From Saprolegnia diclina VS20 (lineage: Eukaryota > Oomycota > Saprolegniomycetes > Saprolegniales > Saprolegniaceae): a stretch of DNA of 21,628 nucleotides. Where the stretch lies: the NCBI RefSeq assembly GCF_000281045.1, contig NW_008246082.1:293524-315151 (forward strand), in the 5' to 3' direction. Below the pieces are notes generated by a model. The model did not search any database. It was not told the DNA's origin and worked only from the letters and a program-made list of their open reading frames with translations. The translations under genes and the position numbers were made by a program. Positions within the stretch are counted from its first letter, which is position 1; every line of letters begins with the position of its first letter. Positions 5,082-20,801 of this stretch are shown here, piece by piece.

Positions 5082-8000
5082 ATGTCGGGCAAAGGAGGCA
5101 AGGGCAAGACGCCCGCAACGAAGGCTGCCAAGCAGCCAGCTCAAGCTCCCCCTGCTGCACCGGCCAAGGCTGCGTCCAAGGCCGCGCCCAAGCCCGCGTC
5201 GCCCAAGGCCAAGGCGCCGGTCGTGACGCCAGAGCTCGTAGCGCAAAAGAAGGCGCTCCTCGAGAGCCTCTCGACAAGCAAGGTGACGATGGCCCGTGAT
5301 GCCAAGGCTGCGGATGAGGAGCTCGCGAAGCTTCTGAAGACGCCCAAGGCCCGTGTCCAGGGCACGGTCGCGCAGCTCGAAGAGGAAGCCAAGCAGCTCG
5401 AGTTCCGCCGTACGACGACGTCCATGTCGCTCAACGAAGAAAAGCGTGTGCTCAAGGACCTCGAGGCCATCAAGGTCCGGAAGGTCCAAGTCACCGAGTA
5501 CGAGGAGTTCCAAGCGACCGTCCAGACGCTTAAGGACAAGAAGAACGAGCTCTACGATACGCTGCGCGCGACCGAGACGCACGAAAAGCTGCTTCAGGCC
5601 GAGCTCCGCAAGATGCAACTCGCGCTCGAGTTGCATACGACGCTCGACGCGTTCGAAACGATCACGATCTCGGTACCCAAGGACAAGATGGGCATGGTCG
5701 TCGGCAAGAACTACACCAAGCTGCGCCAGTTTGAAGAGACGTACCACGTGCTGCTCGACGTCGAGAACGGTATCCCATTGCTCTCTTCCATTCGTGTATC
5801 CTCATGCATGCGATAGGGACGCAGGAGGTCAAGGCGACGAGCTTGCCGAAGCAAAACGCGCTCGTGCTGGCCGCCATCAACAACATTGCGCTCGCGACGA
5901 CGCAGTCGCTGGCCGTGCATCCGGACGTGCTCAAGCTGCTCATGATCCAGAAAGGTCTCCATCTCAAGGCGCTCGAGGCCAAGTGCGACGTCAAGATCGA
6001 CGTGCAGCGCGCTGAAAACACAATCTCGTTCCAGGCGTCGCCCGAGCGCACAGCGCTGCTCGAAGCGACGCTCAAGTCGCTCAACACCAGCAAGGCGACC
6101 ATCGACCTCCCGACCGACGTGATCCCCAAGCTCATTGGCAAGAAGGGCGAGGTCATCTCCAAGATCATGGAAGAGACCGGCGCGCTCCTCGACATTGACC
6201 GCGTCGTACGTGGCCCTTTCTTTCAATCTATCAGTGTATCAACTACTCACCTAGACCAACTGCGTGCACATTGTTGGCCCGGCCGAGAGCGTCGTCGCCG
6301 CGACCGCCCAGGTGGACGCGATCATCCACGACCAAGCCGCGACCGCCGTCAAGGTCAACGCGTCCGATGTCGCCTTCTTTGGGCGCTGGGATGCGTCGCA
6401 GTTCCCGGCATTTGTCGAGTACCTCATGGGCGACAAGGCGGCCAAGCTCAAGGCGCTGCGCAAGGAGGCTCTGGATATCCGTCTGCAAGTCAACAAGGTA
6501 CACTATCAATGTTTCAAGTGAACCGCACAAATGGCGACTAGAACAAGAACCGGTTTGATGTCGACGGCAACCGCCACCAAATCGAAGCGCTCAAGGGCGC
6601 GATTCAGTCGGCGGTCGCGAGCTTCCTGGAGAACGTGCATACGTTTGATGTGGACGAGCGCTGCTTGAGCCTCATTATCGGCAAGAAGGGCTCCAAGATC
6701 AAGGCGATCGAGGCGGAGAGCGGCGCCAAGGTCGACATTCAAGGCCATACCCTCTACATCCTCGGCGAACCCGACCAGGTACGGCACCACTTGCTACACG
6801 CCGATGCTAAAGCGAGTGCAGATTCAAAAAGCAACGGCCTTGGTGGACGAGATTGTGGCCAAGAGCCAGCGGTCGGTCGTGTACACGTCATCGCACTTGA
6901 CGAGCCTCTTGCTCAACAACAAGCGCGCCAAGCTCAACGAGATTGAAAAGGTGAGTGGCTGCAACGTGCAGCTGCCGCCGGCGCCCGCGGGCGGCAAGGC
7001 CCCGCGCACGAAAGCGACGACGATGGCCATCACGCTCACGGGCACGACGGTACGTCAAGATATCAATGTATCGACTTGATAGATATATGGATGTAGAGTG
7101 CGATTCAGCTCGCGTCGACGGCGCTCGAAGCACTCAACGCCGAGAACAAGGTCGTGTACCTCCCATTGGACAGCGACGAGGTCGCGACCGTGATTGGCAA
7201 GAAGGGCGAGACGATCATGAAGCTGGAGAAGGACACGGGGTGCCGTCTCCGTGTGCTGGACGACGCGTCGGATGGCGAGAGCAGCCGCGAGCTTGAGCTC
7301 ATGGGCAACGCCGACCAAGTGGCGGCGGCGACGGCCGCGCTGGACGGGCTGCTTCGCACGTCGGCGCGCCAGCTCTTGCACTTGGACGAGTTCTCGGTCG
7401 CGTGCCTCATTGGCAAGAAGGGCGAGCGCATCAAGGAAGTGCGCGCGGCGCACCCGAACGTGACGCTCGACACGTTCCAAAAGAGCCAGGTGGTCCGCAT
7501 CCAGGGCAACGACAAGGGCGACGTGGACGCGTGCGCAGCCGCGATTCTGGACCTGCTCCAGAACACGACGGTGTTTGAGACGATCAAGGCCAGCGGGCGC
7601 GGGCGCTTTGACGCCCTCCTTTCGGACCAGACGATCGCGCTGCACCTCGCGGAGCTTGAAGCGCAGGGTGGTGTGAAAGCCAGCGTGCTCGAGAACGGCG
7701 CGCAGGTCAAGCTCCGTGGGTCGCCGCTGGGCATCGCGAAGCTCAAGAGCTTCCTCGACATGCTCGCCGACGAGTCATCGCACTGCGTCGCGTCGATTCC
7801 GTTGTCGTCCAAAGCGCATGCGACGTCGCTGCGCGGGCCGACCGACGATAGCCTCCACGAGAATGTCCTCCAGGTTGTCAAGCAAACCAAGACGGTGATT
7901 CGCATCAAGGCCGACAAGGCGAGCCCGAGTGGCTTTGCCGTCTCGCTCGAAGGCGCGTCACTGGCCAAGGTCCTCGACGCCAAGCTCCGTATCGAGAGCC

Positions 8001-9348
8001 TCCTCCAGTTCTTCTTCCCGTCGCACGTCAAGGTCCTCTCGGGCGTCTCGGCCTCGGCCGTGCCCCGTCTCTTCCAGTCGCTGCCCCTCCTCGGTGCCTA
8101 CCACGTACGTGTCCTCATCACTTTGGTGCTTTCGCTGTAACGGAGGGATGTAGGCGACCTTGTCGCTGGCGTCCAAAGACTCGATCAAGATCATCACTGA
8201 CTCGGAGGCCAACACCAAAACGGTGCACAAGAAGCTCCAGGACATCCTCAAGGCGCATGTAAAGGAATACCATGAGATGACGATTCCTGGGTCGGTGACG
8301 CCCCTTTGTGTCGCAGGTCGCTCACCCTGTGTAGACACCTCGTGCCGCAGCTAGTCGGCAAGAATGGCGAGTCGATCAAGCGCCTCTCGAGTGAAAGCCA
8401 TGCGACACTCAACTTGTCGCCCGCCGACGCCGACGACCCGTGGGCCACCCGGTCCCTCACGATCCACTCGCGCGACGAAGCTAACGTCAAGGCGGCGGTA
8501 CCCTACCTGCCACTTTCGATATAGATCTGATGGCGCGTAGGTGCGGCTTGTCCAAGAGCTCTTGCATGCGTACGAAGCCGAGTGCGCGTCGGTCGTCGTG
8601 CCGCTGACGCTGCTCGACGCGGCAATGGGCCTCAAGCGCCAGAGCCCGAGTGGTGTCTCGTTCAACGTGCAGGAGAAGACGGACCTTTCGGCCACGATTC
8701 AGGTTCACGCCAAGAACGCCAGTGAGCGCGCGTCCACGGTCGCCAAGCTCCAAGAGCTCGTGGCCAATACGACGGTGCTGCAGATTGTCTTGCCGTCCAA
8801 CGACATTGTCGGCTCGCTCATCGGGAAGGGCGGCGCCAACATCAAGACGCTCCAGTCCATGCACCCCGGTCTCTTTCCTATTTCAACGTGACGTTCGTCA
8901 ACTCATACTACGATGCGTAGGGCTCCAGGTTGACATTCGCCGCGCTGAGAAGGACGGTGTCCAGAGCAAGGTGTCGCTCCGCGGCGACAAGGCGGCGGTG
9001 GCGGCCGCGGCCGTTTGGGTCCGCGAGAAGATTGCGTCGATCGTGGCCATGGACGTGGAGAAGCGCACGTTTACCAAGCCCAAGCCCGAGAAGGCGGCGG
9101 CGCCCGTCGACGCGCCAGTGGAAGCGCCAATCGAAACGCCGGCCAAACCGACGCGTCACGTCCCTGTGGGTGCGCCGGCGGCTCTGGACAAGAACGCGCG
9201 TCGCCGCCAGCGCAAGCGCGAAGAGAAGGAGCAGGCGGATGCTGCGGCGGCCAAGGCGGCCAAGGGCGTCCTCTCGCCGCGGGCCCACTACGGCCCCAAG
9301 TCGGACTTTGCGTCCCCCTTCAACTACCTTCCCCCCGGCACCAAGTAG
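5082..9348 (+). CDS. Vigilin/Scp160-type multi-KH RNA-binding protein with N-terminal Bfr1-like coiled coil
   Basis: Ten exons: 5082-5769, 5817-6205, 6255-6497, 6542-6778, 6822-7049, 7097-8104, 8154-8290, 8335-8497, 8541-8868, 8921-9348. They join without a break into 3849 nt (1282 aa, close to the usual vigilin length of about 1200-1300). Residues 1-45 are rich in K, A and P. About residues 90-190 form a charged coiled coil with the segment LEFRRTTTSMSLNEEKRVL at about 106-124, which resembles Bfr1. About 14 consecutive KH units follow from residue 193. Six keep a canonical GxxG loop (GKKG near 335, 486, 628 and 700; GKNG near 985; GKGG near 1125). The first has GKNY and the others are degenerate, as in other vigilins where many KH units lost RNA contacts. 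The tail is basic (KNARRRQRKREEKE). Vigilins bind mRNA, rRNA and tRNA on ER-bound polysomes. The KH identity is certain; intron 1 and the acceptor at 6821 were chosen because they restore KH alignment. Confidence 0.93.
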
Positions 9349-9433: not shown

Positions 9434-11086
9434 CTAGGCGTTTTCCTGGCGCTGGGCCGCGGTCTTGACACCGGCACCAGCGATTGCCTTGAGCTCGGCG
9501 CTGTCTCTGGGCTCGGAAAACCCGAGCGCGGTGCGGGCTTCGGCCATGATAAAGACACTGCCGCAGACGACGACCACGTCGTTCTCACTGGCCGCCGCTA
9601 CCCGTATCACCCTGAGAGAAGGCCGACGACGTCGCAGACGTACCGTCCATCGCAGCCGAGACGCCCGACGCGACGCTGCGCTCACCGTCGTGGAAGTGAA
9701 AACCATCGTCCTACGTCATGTCTTCGATTCAAATGTGGTGCGGGCTCGGGTTCGAACCGTCGCCGAGGGCCGGAGCGCAGCTTGAATCTCCGTCATGGTC
9801 GCACAGCGCGGGTGGTAGCCCTGTACGAAATGCACCTTGTTCGGCGTCGTCTTGGCCGTGAGGAGGTCGGTGACGTGAGCCATGTCCTTGTCGGCCGAGA
9901 AGCCGCAGACGAAGCGCAGACTTTGGCTTGGGTACCTCAGCTACCCACCGCCTTCAATGCATGCTGCTTTTGAGAGTCTTGTACCTCAAGGAGGTCGAGG
10001 AGCTTCTCAAAGGCCGGAAGGTTGTGGGCAACGTCCAGAACCACAGTCGCCTGCGGTGTCTTGACGACTTCAAAGCGGCACGGCGGCCGCGACGCCAGGC
10101 ACTTGGCCACTGCGCTTGACGTCGTGTCGAGCGTCAGCTAGTACCTCTGCTCCTAAGCTCTGAAAACAAAGAGGGATAGGGAGATACCTTGGTCTTGTGC
10201 TGGCCGTGAAGGATGTTGAGCTGCACGGCCGCCATAAATGCTACGTCCGAGTTCTCGGCGTTGTAGTCCTTTGCGTGCGCCGGTGTCGGTGCCACGCACA
10301 CGATCGGACTCTGCGCATTCCGCGCGTGCTGACGACAAGACGCTCAGAAATCGACTTGGGTGATGGGAGGAGCCGTACCTGCTGCATGATGTGCTGTGGC
10401 GTTTGCGGCCCGACAACCACCGGGACGTTGGGCTTCATAATGCCGGCCTTCTCGCGCGCAATCTCGGGGATCGTGCTGCCCAGAATACGCGTGTGGTCAA
10501 GCCTAGCGTATAGAGACATAGCGTCTTGGCCATCGAGGGCGAGCTACCCGATCGACGTGATGACCGAGAGGACCGGAGTCACAATGTTGGTCGCGTCCAG
10601 GCGGCCACCAAGACCGGTTTCAAGCACGACGCAGTCGACGTCTTGAGCTGCAAAGTGCTGCAGCGCCAGCATGGTCGTGAGCTCAAAGAAGGTGGCGGGA
10701 ATGCCCTTGTCCTCGGTGAGCGCAAAGAGCGTCGGTAGGTGCGTCTCGACGTCGGCTTCCGAAATGAGCTCGCCGTTGATCTGGATGCGCTCGCGAAAGC
10801 ACGACACGTGGGGCGAGACAAAGAGGCCGGTCTTGAAGCCCGACGCCTCCAGTGCCTTGGCGAGCTTCCACGAGACGGATCCCTTGCCGTTGGTCCCCGC
10901 CACGTGCACCGTGTCAAACCGCTACAAGAGGAGTTGAGGCGGCGGCGTCAACATGCGTGGGCGCACCGTCGCCGGCTGCCCGAGGGCGTCATGGAGCGCG
11001 ACCGAGTTGCGGAGGCCCATCTTGACGGCCGCCGAGAACTGGTTGACGCCCAAGAGCCGCTTCAGCAGCACGTCATACGCGGTCAT
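9434..11086 (-). CDS. Folylpolyglutamate synthase / dihydrofolate synthase (FolC family)
   Basis: Eight exons read from the right: 11086-10967, 10921-10548, 10502-10379, 10310-10188, 10137-9985, 9940-9758, 9710-9644, 9597-9434. They total 1308 nt (435 aa), close to bacterial FolC (about 420-440). Landmarks in order: the ATP-binding loop GTNGKGSV (residues 49-56), GLGGRLDATN, SIGLDHTRILG (near 163-173) followed by EKAGI, the C-terminal-domain motif VLDVAHN (near 280-286), FSADKD (near 312-317), and a final GSVFIMAEAR strand. The enzyme adds glutamate to folates, or to dihydropteroate when bifunctional, using ATP. Sequence alone does not separate the two activities. The ATG at 11086 opens a normal FolC N-terminus (YDVLLKRLLGVNQF) with no obvious organelle-targeting extension. 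Intron 3 (10311-10378, 68 bp) is the longest placed and one of few with a CAG acceptor. The gene converges on vigilin, with 85 bp between stops. Confidence 0.92.
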
Positions 11087-16164: not shown

Positions 16165-19100
16165 TTAAAAGCTCAGTGCACCGTAGCCAAGCCCCGCGGG
16201 GGGCGGCGATCGCGCATCGTGCAGACGCGGGGGGGCGTCGGCTTCGGCGAGGGTCGTTGCTACTCCAAGCGTGAGTCACTGGAGATTGCGAAGTAAAAAC
16301 TACCTTGGAGTTGCTGCTCGAGCATCGCAGCGTAATCGGTCGGCTGCGCGGCGAGCATTGGCGACTTGGGCGTCGACGTCGATGCAAACGCCGTGGTCGG
16401 GCGCGTCACGGGCCCGTCGAGCTGCTTGCAGGGGCAGTCGCAGTCTGAGACTGGGCACACATCGTGCGTGGCGAACCAGTCGGTCATGTGATGCGCGTGG
16501 CCGCCTACCCCCAACCCGTCGACTAATTAACGAAAACCAAGAGTCGTACCGTGCTTGCACGTCTGGCACCACGTAAACCACTCTGCGAATGGGATGCTCG
16601 AGAGGTCGGCGAGGCTGTCGGCGTGGCTGCTGTGGCTTTCATGCTCCAACTTGAGTTTGTCGCCTTTGCGGAGCGCAAGCTCCAAGTACGGGTTGAGGGC
16701 GCCAAACGGCAGCAAGCACAGTGCGCACTGTGGCAAGGGCTTCTTGCAGCTCGGGCAGTTGTTGAGTTTTGGCTTGGCCTTGACGAGCCAGTCGCCGTTG
16801 CCGACACGGAGCAGCGACGAGAGCGCGAGCGACGACCCACAAAAGTTGCAGCGTACGTACATCTGCGGCTGCGGGAGGTTCATTTGCGCGGGCGCGGCGC
16901 CTCCGTCCGGCGACGAGAGCGCCGTGAGCTGGTCCATGAGCTGGGCCCGGCCCACATCAAAGAGCGCGCGCTCGTGGAAGAGCTGCCATTGGTTGAGCAG
17001 ATCGCGGTACAATGCGATCCACGTCGCCATCATCGGGTACTCGCTCGGCACGACGCGCGCCGCCAGCAGCGCAATCGTTTGGATATCGCCCGTGCGATCC
17101 AAGTACTCTTGGAGCAACGTGGGGTCGAGGCCAATGAGGAGGAGGCCCTGGAGGTTGCCGTCGCGCACGCAGCGCTCGACACAAGTGTCGATAAAGCGCG
17201 TGAGCGCGTCGAGCGGAAGGAACCGACACGCAAACGCGGTGCGGTCCGAGAGGAGCAAGGTCTCGTCGTGCAAAATAGAGGCAAAGAGCGGCGGCCCGTC
17301 GTCGACGACAGGCATGAACGACGCGCTCGAGTTGCGCCGGAGGTGGGCGGCCACATTGTTCTTGGGCGGCCGATGCAACGGCGTCGACGTGGACGCGGCG
17401 AGGTCCTTGGCCGTGCTCAAAAACGAACAGAGCGCGTGGAGGTACCGGGGCGCGCCGCTCGATTGGACCTCGGGGCGCTTGAGGAGCTGCAAAATCATCG
17501 AGCCCCAGAGTGCATTCGTGGTCGGCCCGTTCACCGAGTAGCCTGCGATCGCCATGGCCACCAGCTGACGCAGATCGCGGTGCGGGTCCGAGTCGGCGCC
17601 CCGCTGGAGCACCGAGACGGCCGCAAGGAGGTCGCCGTGAAAGACGGCGAGCGCCGCCGCACGGTCATAGTCGTGCGTCGACTCGCACTGAGCCAAGAGC
17701 GACGAGAGCGACGGCAAGGACGCGGCGAGGGGCGGGTCGTCCATGTAGTCTTCGTTGAGCGAGGCCCACGACCCGTTGTTGAGCTTTGTACGAGGCATCG
17801 CCGATGCGTTGAGGCCTAGCCCGCACTCGGGGTCCCACTGGCACGCGAGGAGTGCGGTGCGCCGTCCGAGGCTGTCGTAGACGAGGCAGCCGAGGTTCGG
17901 GTCGCGCATCGACGTCTCCATGGACGAGCTCGAGAGCGCGGGGGCCTTCGAGAGACCGAGAAGGTGCTGAACCCCAGCGTTCATGAGGGCTTGCGCGTCG
18001 ATGGGCCACGCGCGGAGCGGGCCGCGGTGCAAGCTCGATGTCAACAATCCTATTTTGTATCAATCTACCAAGTTGATACAAAAAGACACAACGTACCGCG
18101 CGCGTCTTGGCTGTGCATGTCCAAGGTCGCAATCGCGTGTCGCCGCAGGGCCTCGACTTGCTCGACCCACATCCACACAAAACGCAGATCGCGGTTGTCT
18201 TCCTTGACGAAGATCTGCAGCGACGTGAGCACGTTCATCGAGTAGCCGGCCTTGACGCGGCGCACCATGCGCGCCGCAATGTCGTCGTGGCCCCGGCGTT
18301 CCGGCACCTAGCACAAACACGAGAACGGTAAGGTGGGATCCGGCGCCAGAGACGACGAGCGTACCCCCGACGCGTCGGCAAAGAGGAAGTTGCCGCAGCC
18401 AAAGCCGAGCTGCCCCGTCGACGCCAGCGCCAAAGGCATTGTATCGTGGATCGACACGTTCTCCAATTTGCCCGTGATCGACGCGGTCACGAGGCGGTCC
18501 GGGTTGGCAACAACATCGGCGTTGGTGACCGCCCGCCACGAGAAAGCAAACACGGGCTCCTTGGTCGACCGCCGCTTGACGGGCTTGCGCAGCGAGCCCG
18601 AGGGCTGGTCGACGTCCCAGAGCGAGATCGATCGATCGTCCGAGGTCGTAGTCGCGAGAATACCGGGCTTGGTCGGCGACCACGCGATTTGCGTAATCGT
18701 CTTGCCGCTTGGGTAGATGGACACGAGCGGCTCGGGCGCGTCGCCCTGTCGGATCGAGCGGATGTCCCACACTTTTACGGGCTCTTTCGGGTCGTCGCTG
18801 TACGTGGCGAGGATGTGCGGACGGTGCGTGTCGAACACGACGCCGTAGACACCTAACCGCGATGGCGAAATCGCTCTCTAGCGCCATGTAGCATCCTCAA
18901 ACCTTTGGTGTGTGCCGAGACGACCATGGGCGTTGTCTTGGTGCGCAGATCGTAGATGCGGAGCCTAACGAGAGGTCACTTGGCATATAGTCGAGTAGGG
19001 TGCCACAGACCATTTGAAGCCCGTGCCCGTCGCGAGGTACGACGGGTCGGAGGGCAGCCACGCCATGGCCACGATGGCCTCCGCGTGCGACAGCTCGTGC

Positions 19101-19862
19101 GTGATCATGGGCTTGGTGAAAAACGAAAAACCTATTTGACCACGTAGGTACGCCTGTGGAGTCGATGTTTACCGGCGCCGGACCGGCTCTGAAAATGGTT
19201 TTGCTTGGACTCGTAGTGGGGCGGATCTACGGACCCTGGTGGAGGTTAGAAGCAGCAACGGGGTGCGTACCGGCGAGGATCGGGCCCGCGGCAAGCGACG
19301 TCATGGGCGTTTGCGTCGTGAGGTCCCACACGAACGCGCAGCAGTCGACGCGGACCTTCTCAAACCCGGCGGCGATCTGCGTCGGGTTGTGCGGGTTCCA
19401 TGCCACCGTGTTGCACGCAATCGGCGTGTGCATGGATGGCCGCGACGACTTGAGGCCCGGCATGGGCTGCAGTAGGTTCGTTGAGCTTCCGGACGTGCGC
19501 GATGGCATGAGCTCGACGACGGTCTGGCTAAAATCCGACAAGATGACCTTGCCCGCGCCGACGCCGGCCGCGATGAGCTGGCGGGGCAGCGGGCACCACT
19601 GCAGGCTCTTCACTTGGGCGATGTCCGAGTTGGTTTGCACCATGCGGAAGATATCCTTCTTGCGGCGGGCGGTCGTGACGTGCGGGAGGCTGTGCAGCAT
19701 CGTGTCGACGTCAACGCCCATGAGGTCCATGCCATTGCCCGCCATCTCGCGCTGCGTCTGGCACTCGTAGAGGCTCAGCGAGTCGGCGCCGGCCGCGAAG
19801 AGCGCGCTGTTGTACGGGCACCACTCGACGAGCACCTTGGGGTTGTACGGCTTCGTGCTCAT
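16165..19862 (-). CDS. MIOS: GATOR2 complex subunit MIOS (SEA4/Mio), WD40 and zinc-ribbon protein
   Basis: Nine exons read from the right: 19862-19271, 19226-19173, 19131-19011, 18964-18903, 18852-18365, 18307-18097, 18049-16550, 16504-16304, 16259-16165. They total 3324 nt (1107 aa; human MIOS is shorter, yeast Sea4 similar). The N-terminal third is a WD40 propeller ([20 protein letters not shown], then [27 protein letters not shown]). A helical middle follows. The C-terminal zinc module is diagnostic of Mio: CNFC near 910, CPSC near 941 and PLPQCALC near 951, then [10 protein letters not shown] near 1004 joined across an intron to [25 protein letters not shown]2 acts at the lysosome or vacuole, opposing GATOR1 to allow amino-acid activation of TORC1. 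The last exon was added because reading on from exon 8 enters a normal 44-bp intron. It yields a short P-rich tail ending LGYGALSF. The start ATG is just before a CCAAT-rich promoter. Confidence 0.93.
18053..18083. repeat. Perfect 11-bp inverted repeat inside MIOS intron 6
   Basis: TTTTGTATCAA at 18053-18063 is the exact reverse complement of TTGATACAAAA at 18073-18083, with a 9-nt loop. It fills most of the 47-bp intron at 18050-18096 and would form a stable hairpin in the pre-mRNA, starting about 2 nt from the TAG acceptor. It could bring the splice sites together or mask the acceptor. The role is inferred. Confidence 0.7.
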
Positions 19863-20018: not shown

Positions 20019-20801
20019 ATGTGGCAGCAGCCGCCGACCACCTGGGACGACTTTAGCCGGTGGGCCGCGCCCGTGCTCAAGGAGACCGCGCCCATCGAGG
20101 AACTCAGCTATGCCCACTCGCGCTCCATGACGATCCTCAAGGCGCTGGAACGCGCCAAGCTTTTGTCCACGCCCGGCGTCCAGCACAAGAAGCACAAAAC
20201 GACGGTCGCGCCCACCAAGAAGAAGCTCGTGCTGCACATTGTTGGCGCGGATCAGCGCGAAGGAACCTCCGTGCCCGCGACGCTCAAGGTGTTTGAGGTG
20301 CTGCTCGCTGCCTTTGGAAGCGCGGGCCAGCCCGACCACGGCTACGAAGAACTCGTGCTCGTCCTCATTGGGCCTAACGTCGAGCAGCGTCTACATGGCA
20401 CAGCGTCCACGAGCGCGATCCCCGGCAGCGACAAGAGCGTCTGCGTCGTGTACGCGTCGGAGCTCTGGTCGGAGCACCTTGCAGGCCCGATGTATCTGTC
20501 GCCGTCGGCCATTTTTTGCTTCAACGCTGGCGTGTGGGGCTACGACGAGTGGCTTCCGACGTTTGCGCTCATGATGACCGAAGAGCCCAAAACGCCGATC
20601 GTCATCACGTCGTACAACGCACTCGAGGCGATCGACGACGCCGACTGCCTCGACGATTTGGAAATGGCGTTTGTCTGGCGCTGGCGGCACGAAGTGAACG
20701 CATTCTGGTGCCTCACGCAGCGCGCGACGCAGCACACGCTGCCGGACCGCGTCTTGAACGAAAACCAGTCGTGGCAGTGCATCGCAGCGACCCCCCACTA
20801 A
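20019..20801 (+). CDS. Protein resembling the MSS51 C-terminal domain, 260 aa
   Basis: A single-exon frame from ATG 20019 to TAA 20799-20801. The pattern of conserved pieces fits the domain shared by the C-termini of MSS51 and its relatives: LVLHIVGADQREG (near residues 69-81), ELVLVLIGPNVE (near 109-120), a central VCVVYAS strand, AIFCFNAGVWGYDEWLPTF (near 166-184), then TPIVITSYNALEAIDDADCL (near 192-211). Fungal Mss51 controls mitochondrial COX1 mRNA translation. Animal and protist proteins with this domain often carry an N-terminal MYND zinc finger. None is present here: the first 65 residues have no Cys/His cluster, only a basic Lys-rich segment (KKHKTTVAPTKKK). Function is therefore uncertain. 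The assignment is from remembered family pattern, not a search. A polyadenylation signal follows the stop. Confidence 0.8.
   Translation: MWQQPPTTWDDFSRWAAPVLKETAPIEELSYAHSRSMTILKALERAKLLSTPGVQHKKHKTTVAPTKKKLVLHIVGADQREGTSVPATLKVFEVLLAAFGSAGQPDHGYEELVLVLIGPNVEQRLHGTASTSAIPGSDKSVCVVYASELWSEHLAGPMYLSPSAIFCFNAGVWGYDEWLPTFALMMTEEPKTPIVITSYNALEAIDDADCLDDLEMAFVWRWRHEVNAFWCLTQRATQHTLPDRVLNENQSWQCIAATPH

Follow-up and report, generated by a model that had tools for sequence, protein, structure and literature searches.

The closest described systems are the Bfr1 family, represented by yeast Bfr1 and T. brucei ERBP1, and the multi-KH proteins Vigilin and Scp160. Yeast Bfr1 and Scp160 are described as an interacting pair found on polysomes at the ER (PMC8783092), and their co-immunoprecipitation is reported to be RNA-dependent (PMC8783092). 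ERBP1 is assigned to the Bfr1 family (IPR039604/PTHR31027) and described as ER-associated; outside kinetoplastids, a protein of Phytophthora parasitica is among its nearest matches (PMC7025706), which agrees with the occurrence of a separate Bfr1 in oomycetes. Among the titles and abstract openings listed for the Bfr1, vigilin and Scp160 literature, there was no report of a Bfr1 segment arranged together with a KH array.

We identified this arrangement in SDRG_05670 of Saprolegnia diclina, an oomycete of the order Saprolegniales. The gene lies in the stretch of DNA analyzed here (the window; 21,628 nucleotides, C15:293524-315151 of the 54-Mb genome), and its database record carries only the name 'hypothetical protein'. 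The spliced model encoded 1282 amino acids and was letter-for-letter equal to database protein P0002 (Saprolegnia diclina VS20); three options kept the reading frame at the seventh intron, one of which reproduced the 1282-residue SDRG_05670 protein. An earlier note on this DNA had listed its feature at 5082..5770; exon 1 itself spans 5082-5769, the GT donor supplying the G at 5770. As the same note had stated, exon 1 continues uninterrupted into KH1: it is open from MSGKGG and stop-free, and the helical segment shares the exon with most of KH1. The block LEFRRTTTSMSLNEEK, which the note had compared with Bfr1, indeed begins at residue 106. The features of the gene are as follows (window coordinates):

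5082..9348, + strand: SDRG_05670, multi-KH (vigilin-like) gene, ten exons
5082-5769, 5817-6205, 6255-6497, 6542-6778, 6822-7049, + strand: exons 1-5
7097-8104, 8154-8290, 8335-8497, 8541-8868, 8921-9348, + strand: exons 6-10
5082..5222, + strand: Lys/Ala/Pro-rich low-complexity tail, residues 1-47 (sequence; ten-residue mean pLDDT 35-63)
5223..5561, + strand: Bfr1-related segment, residues 48-160 (genome match to the Bfr1 gene on C28; profile-profile probability 95.5)
5229..5339, + strand: helix 1, residues 50-86 (AlphaFold2 model)
5367..5417, + strand: helix 2, residues 96-112, just before the turn (AlphaFold2 model; counterpart 109-124 in the yeast Bfr1 model)
5418..5429, + strand: turn, residues 113-116, within the motif T.[ST][MI][ST][LN]..EK (AlphaFold2 model; motif in 9/9 proteins)
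5430..5630, + strand: helix 3, residues 117-183 (AlphaFold2 model)
5670..9033, + strand: tandem array with 13 KH-like units, spanning residues 197-1178 and split by introns (iterated KH profile; Pfam KH_1)

Like Vigilin and Scp160, SDRG_05670 contains a long tandem KH array. The iterated KH profile detected 13 KH-like units in P0002, two of them below 10 bits, and Pfam KH_1 matched eight stretches of the protein (E 3.5e-85). Among the loci listed, no other had more than three KH_1 matches; SDRG_05670 had at least 7 of at least 15 in the genome. The vigilin label is based on this array. We also compared the order of the KH units with that of a human vigilin sequence, using 11 blocks for single proteins and 14 blocks for a profile of nine homologous proteins (see below). 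Permuted orders equaled or beat the native order in 90/150 (P0002), 65/150 (P0006) and 101/150 (P0082) cases, and 79 of 93 permutations reached or exceeded it with the nine-protein profile. Because the native order did not beat permuted ones, a negative or uninformative outcome, 'vigilin' is to be read here as multi-KH, vigilin-like. SDRG_05670 differs from human vigilin in that the latter shows no Bfr1-like segment ahead of KH1; its N-terminus scored at most -1.5 bits with three profiles.

Other coding regions were also observed in the window. On the minus strand, 16527-19862 contained pieces of an alpha-solenoid (PF21719, E 1.9e-20) and of WD40 repeats (PF21720) in three open frames, which we take to be a MIOS-like gene (GATOR2 subunit). 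A protein with an MSS51 C-terminal domain (PF20179, E 2.5e-30) is encoded on the plus strand at 20019-20801. A piece of a Mur ligase middle domain on the minus strand at 10544-10909 (E 0.00025; 21.5 bits, under the family cut-off of 24) presumably resembles folylpolyglutamate synthase.

Homologs of SDRG_05670 were collected in three protein-database searches, in which 7999, 7999 and 7992 candidates were scored, so that other oomycete homologs may lie outside these sets. Among its 7992 candidates, the third search yielded nine proteins with E values of 1e-20 or lower, the query species included. Eight of them belong to Saprolegnia, Achlya, Thraustotheca and Aphanomyces, all Saprolegniales, and the ninth is P0082 (38% identity), whose N-terminus is shorter than the others and whose gene model is perhaps incomplete. 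Each of the nine contained 12-14 KH-like units, the weakest scoring near or below zero bits. Conservation of the fusion across oomycetes had been named as support for it; all nine proteins found have the arrangement, and its recovered range comprises the Saprolegniales plus P0082. Two Aphanomyces proteins (P0079 and P0080) and P0082 end with GYYHS..GYSLRL, an ending absent from two Saprolegnia proteins.

The proposal that the non-KH N-terminus resembles Bfr1 was borne out: residues 48-160 are mostly helical, precede KH1 and are related to Bfr1 by both genome and profile-profile matches. When residues 46-192 were searched against the whole 54-Mb genome, the best non-self match was C28:266009-266347 (E 0.0025; next match E 0.577), which lies in the following gene:

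C28:265097-266557 (L005:979-2439, - strand): S. diclina Bfr1 homolog P0083, one open frame

With P0083 as the query, only itself and exon 1 of SDRG_05670 (E 0.0045) were found in the whole genome (E up to 10, 11 candidates scored), and the two segments are thus reciprocal best non-self matches. Residues 48-160 of SDRG_05670 matched residues 71-183 of P0083, and the reciprocal match paired residues 41-158 with 63-181. BLASTP of the segment against S. diclina Bfr1 gave 34% identity over 71 residues (single-comparison E 8e-7).

Profile comparisons gave the same relationship. The N-termini of the nine multi-KH proteins, compared with eight Bfr1 hairpins including P0083, had a profile-profile probability of 95.5 and a score of 52.1, which was reached by none of 200 column shuffles (maximum 24.1) and none of 200 heptad-class shuffles (maximum 20.5); the reversed profile scored 14.1. 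Against the 16 proteins from the yeast Bfr1 search, without P0083, the nine N-termini had a probability of 80.6 and a score of 43.4, with the register unchanged, and five N-termini a probability of 66.1 (score 39.2). The profile of nine N-termini scored 23.8 bits on P0083, a value reached by 0/4000 shuffles (3921 reported), and 16.0 and 15.0 bits on P0078 and P0076, respectively, neither of which was reached by any of 4000 shuffles. A near-identical profile had a maximum of 16.4 bits among 177,635 PDB sequences. In the reverse direction, a Bfr1-hairpin profile scored 10.7-19.3 bits on the nine N-termini (0/2000 shuffles for each of three tested). When P0083 was removed, it gave 12.3 (P0002), 13.2 (P0006) and 9.4 bits (P0082), which were reached by 0/2000, 1/2000 and 4/1997 reported shuffles, respectively. 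This direction is weaker and not decisive alone, because the best PDB coiled coil, a designed one, reached 16.3 bits with a similar profile.

Yeast Bfr1 by itself did not reveal the relationship. In the database, the yeast Bfr1 query returned P0007 (470 aa) with 100% identity across its whole length. It scored 2.9 bits with the profile of nine N-termini, which was not above chance (56/2000 plain and 72/2000 heptad-class shuffles). BLASTP of exon 1 against it gave a best E of 1.1, the alignment with the turn in register having an E of 1.7; neither was significant. Searched with P0007, the genome yielded nothing within an E limit of 10 among the 12 candidates scored, so a yeast query alone would miss the C28 gene. 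Pfam detected no Bfr1 family in exon 1, only KH_1, beginning at residue 193 with E 9e-4, plus seven further entries at E 0.099 or above, and the PDB sequence search of exon 1 found no Bfr1 match, the best E outside KH1 being 0.21. The turn motif T.[ST][MI][ST][LN]..EK was present in all nine multi-KH proteins and in S. diclina Bfr1; this expression, tuned to oomycete sequences, matched 0/5 Bfr1 proteins from the yeast Bfr1 search, and in several such proteins the turn reads SG.LS[LI]V.EK.

The predicted structures agreed in their helix pattern, compared by helix boundaries. AlphaFold2 placed helices at residues 50-86, 96-112 and 117-183 of exon 1, with a four-residue turn (mean pLDDT 79.3; residues 50-183 mostly above 90), and at residues 48-100, 109-124 and 130-176 of yeast Bfr1, with a five-residue turn (mean pLDDT 81.1). 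Both models consist of a helix, an 8-9 residue loop, a 16-17 residue helix, a 4-5 residue turn and a long helix, and helix 3 starts at the same aligned Leu. The SDRG_05670 segment is thus like the Bfr1 family in having a long helix, a loop, a short helix, a turn before an E-K helix and a long helix, as well as in sequence over approximately 110 residues; this helix-turn-helix segment, with its conserved turn and E-K helix, is present in SDRG_05670, and in sequence yeast Bfr1 taken alone does not match it above chance. Foldseek with the exon 1 model reached a best E of 0.13, with nothing inside the 0.001 limit and only generic helical hairpins, and a VIA comparison of the model also returned generic helical hairpins, which is evidence neither way.

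The resemblance might instead be that of a convergent coiled coil, produced by charged heptads and a common helix-capping turn. The Lys/Glu-rich composition of the segment fits this explanation, as do the scores of yeast Bfr1 alone, which were not above those of shuffles, and the reverse profile, whose scores do not stand clear of that for the best coiled coil in the PDB (16.3 bits); the Foldseek value of 0.13 and the generic hairpins from VIA fit it as well but say little either way. However, heptad-class column shuffles never reached the profile-profile score (0/200), the match was reciprocal across a 54-Mb genome, and the PDB maximum was 16.4 bits compared to 23.8 for S. diclina Bfr1. We consider convergence very unlikely, and homology of the segment to Bfr1 is the reading followed below.

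The earlier note had also asked for a check that the genome lacks a separate Bfr1 and had named a distinct full-length homolog as one of two grounds for rejecting its proposal; P0083, at C28:265097-266557, is such a homolog. It is Bfr1-like along its length, with a probability of 99.1 against 16 Bfr1 proteins over 381 columns (residues 14-411 of 487), and a basidiomycete Bfr1 (P0078, Rhodosporidiobolus ruineniae) found it at E 1.7e-9. Two weak matches were observed elsewhere in the genome, one to the basidiomycete Bfr1 at C38:317727-318017 (L006, E 0.088) and one to the SDRG_05670 N-terminus at C53:44696-44851 (L004, E 0.577). The C-terminal tail of the C28 Bfr1 reads FPSLSG...SAWGP. The tails of human vigilin and yeast Scp160 presumably resemble this FPSL...WGP tail.

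Full-length Bfr1 architecture (about 450-500 residues, with a C-terminal region) is absent from SDRG_05670, in which KH1 starts at residue 197. The segment differs from Bfr1 family members in lacking their (K/R)PD start, later long helix and C-terminal region, in being attached to KH domains and in coexisting with a complete Bfr1 in the genome. Only residues 48-160 match and the C28 gene is complete; therefore, the SDRG_05670 protein holds one Bfr1 segment. These data bear on the original idea of a Rosetta-stone fusion, in which one chain would unite the functions of Bfr1 and vigilin and replace the two-protein complex. The Bfr1-related segment and most of KH1 do lie in one exon, the whole array is part of one chain, and the arrangement was seen in 9/9 proteins found. 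However, a separate full-length Bfr1 is encoded on C28 of the same genome, and SDRG_05670 has a counterpart for only ~110 of 486-487 Bfr1 residues, which leaves this explanation largely refuted. What stands of the claim that Bfr1 and vigilin are joined in one chain is a Bfr1-related N-terminus within a single exon; the remainder of Bfr1, beyond ~110 of its 486-487 residues, is missing. The further suggestion that the fusion explains the partnership of yeast Bfr1 and Scp160 is weakened because a distinct full-length Bfr1 exists in the genome, and also by the RNA dependence of the yeast co-immunoprecipitation as reported in PMC8783092. Since the genome also keeps a complete Bfr1, the segment is better viewed as a shared module than as a merger of whole genes.

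Such a module might also be an ancient helix-turn-helix element of several mRNP proteins, inherited by both families and not specifically derived from Bfr1. In a 50-residue core, the multi-KH segments share 15, 16 and 18 positions (10 for P0082) with S. diclina Bfr1, similar to the 11-19 core positions that this Bfr1 shares with six other Bfr1 proteins. With these six, the segments have 6-14 positions in common, and any two Bfr1 proteins agree at 11 or more, values from which the direction of transfer is unreadable. On the other hand, S. diclina Bfr1 matched itself and exon 1 only in the genome (E up to 10, 11 candidates scored), the two weak places noted above (E 0.577 and 0.088) having come from other queries; the N-terminus of human vigilin also reached no more than -1.5 bits with any of three profiles. 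An ancient common element therefore appears unlikely, although less so than convergence.

Computation established that the segment is homologous to Bfr1, that its exon is uninterrupted, that nine proteins conserve the arrangement and that a complete Bfr1 gene coexists with it. The picture is of a genuine Bfr1-type module, conserved and attached to a multi-KH protein, rather than of two whole partner proteins merged into one. The N-terminus of SDRG_05670 is probably a Bfr1-homologous helical module, most likely gained when a Bfr1-type segment was duplicated or shuffled onto a multi-KH protein, although this direction of transfer is presumed. The hairpin may serve as a protein-docking arm. It would place the KH array on a polysome or ER mRNP occupied by Bfr1, whether it pairs with Bfr1 itself or uses the same binding surface as Bfr1, while the KH array would hold the mRNA. 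We also consider it possible, but rather doubtful, that the partners traded modules, such that the KH protein has a Bfr1 hairpin, Bfr1 has a vigilin-like tail, and the hairpin contacts Bfr1 directly; if so, the two proteins would associate directly here, whereas in yeast their association depends on RNA.

A family can now be assigned to the front of a protein recorded merely as a 'hypothetical protein'. As a natural protein that carries a Bfr1 segment together with a KH array, SDRG_05670 singles out a module of ~110 residues, which becomes a candidate contact surface and is directly testable.
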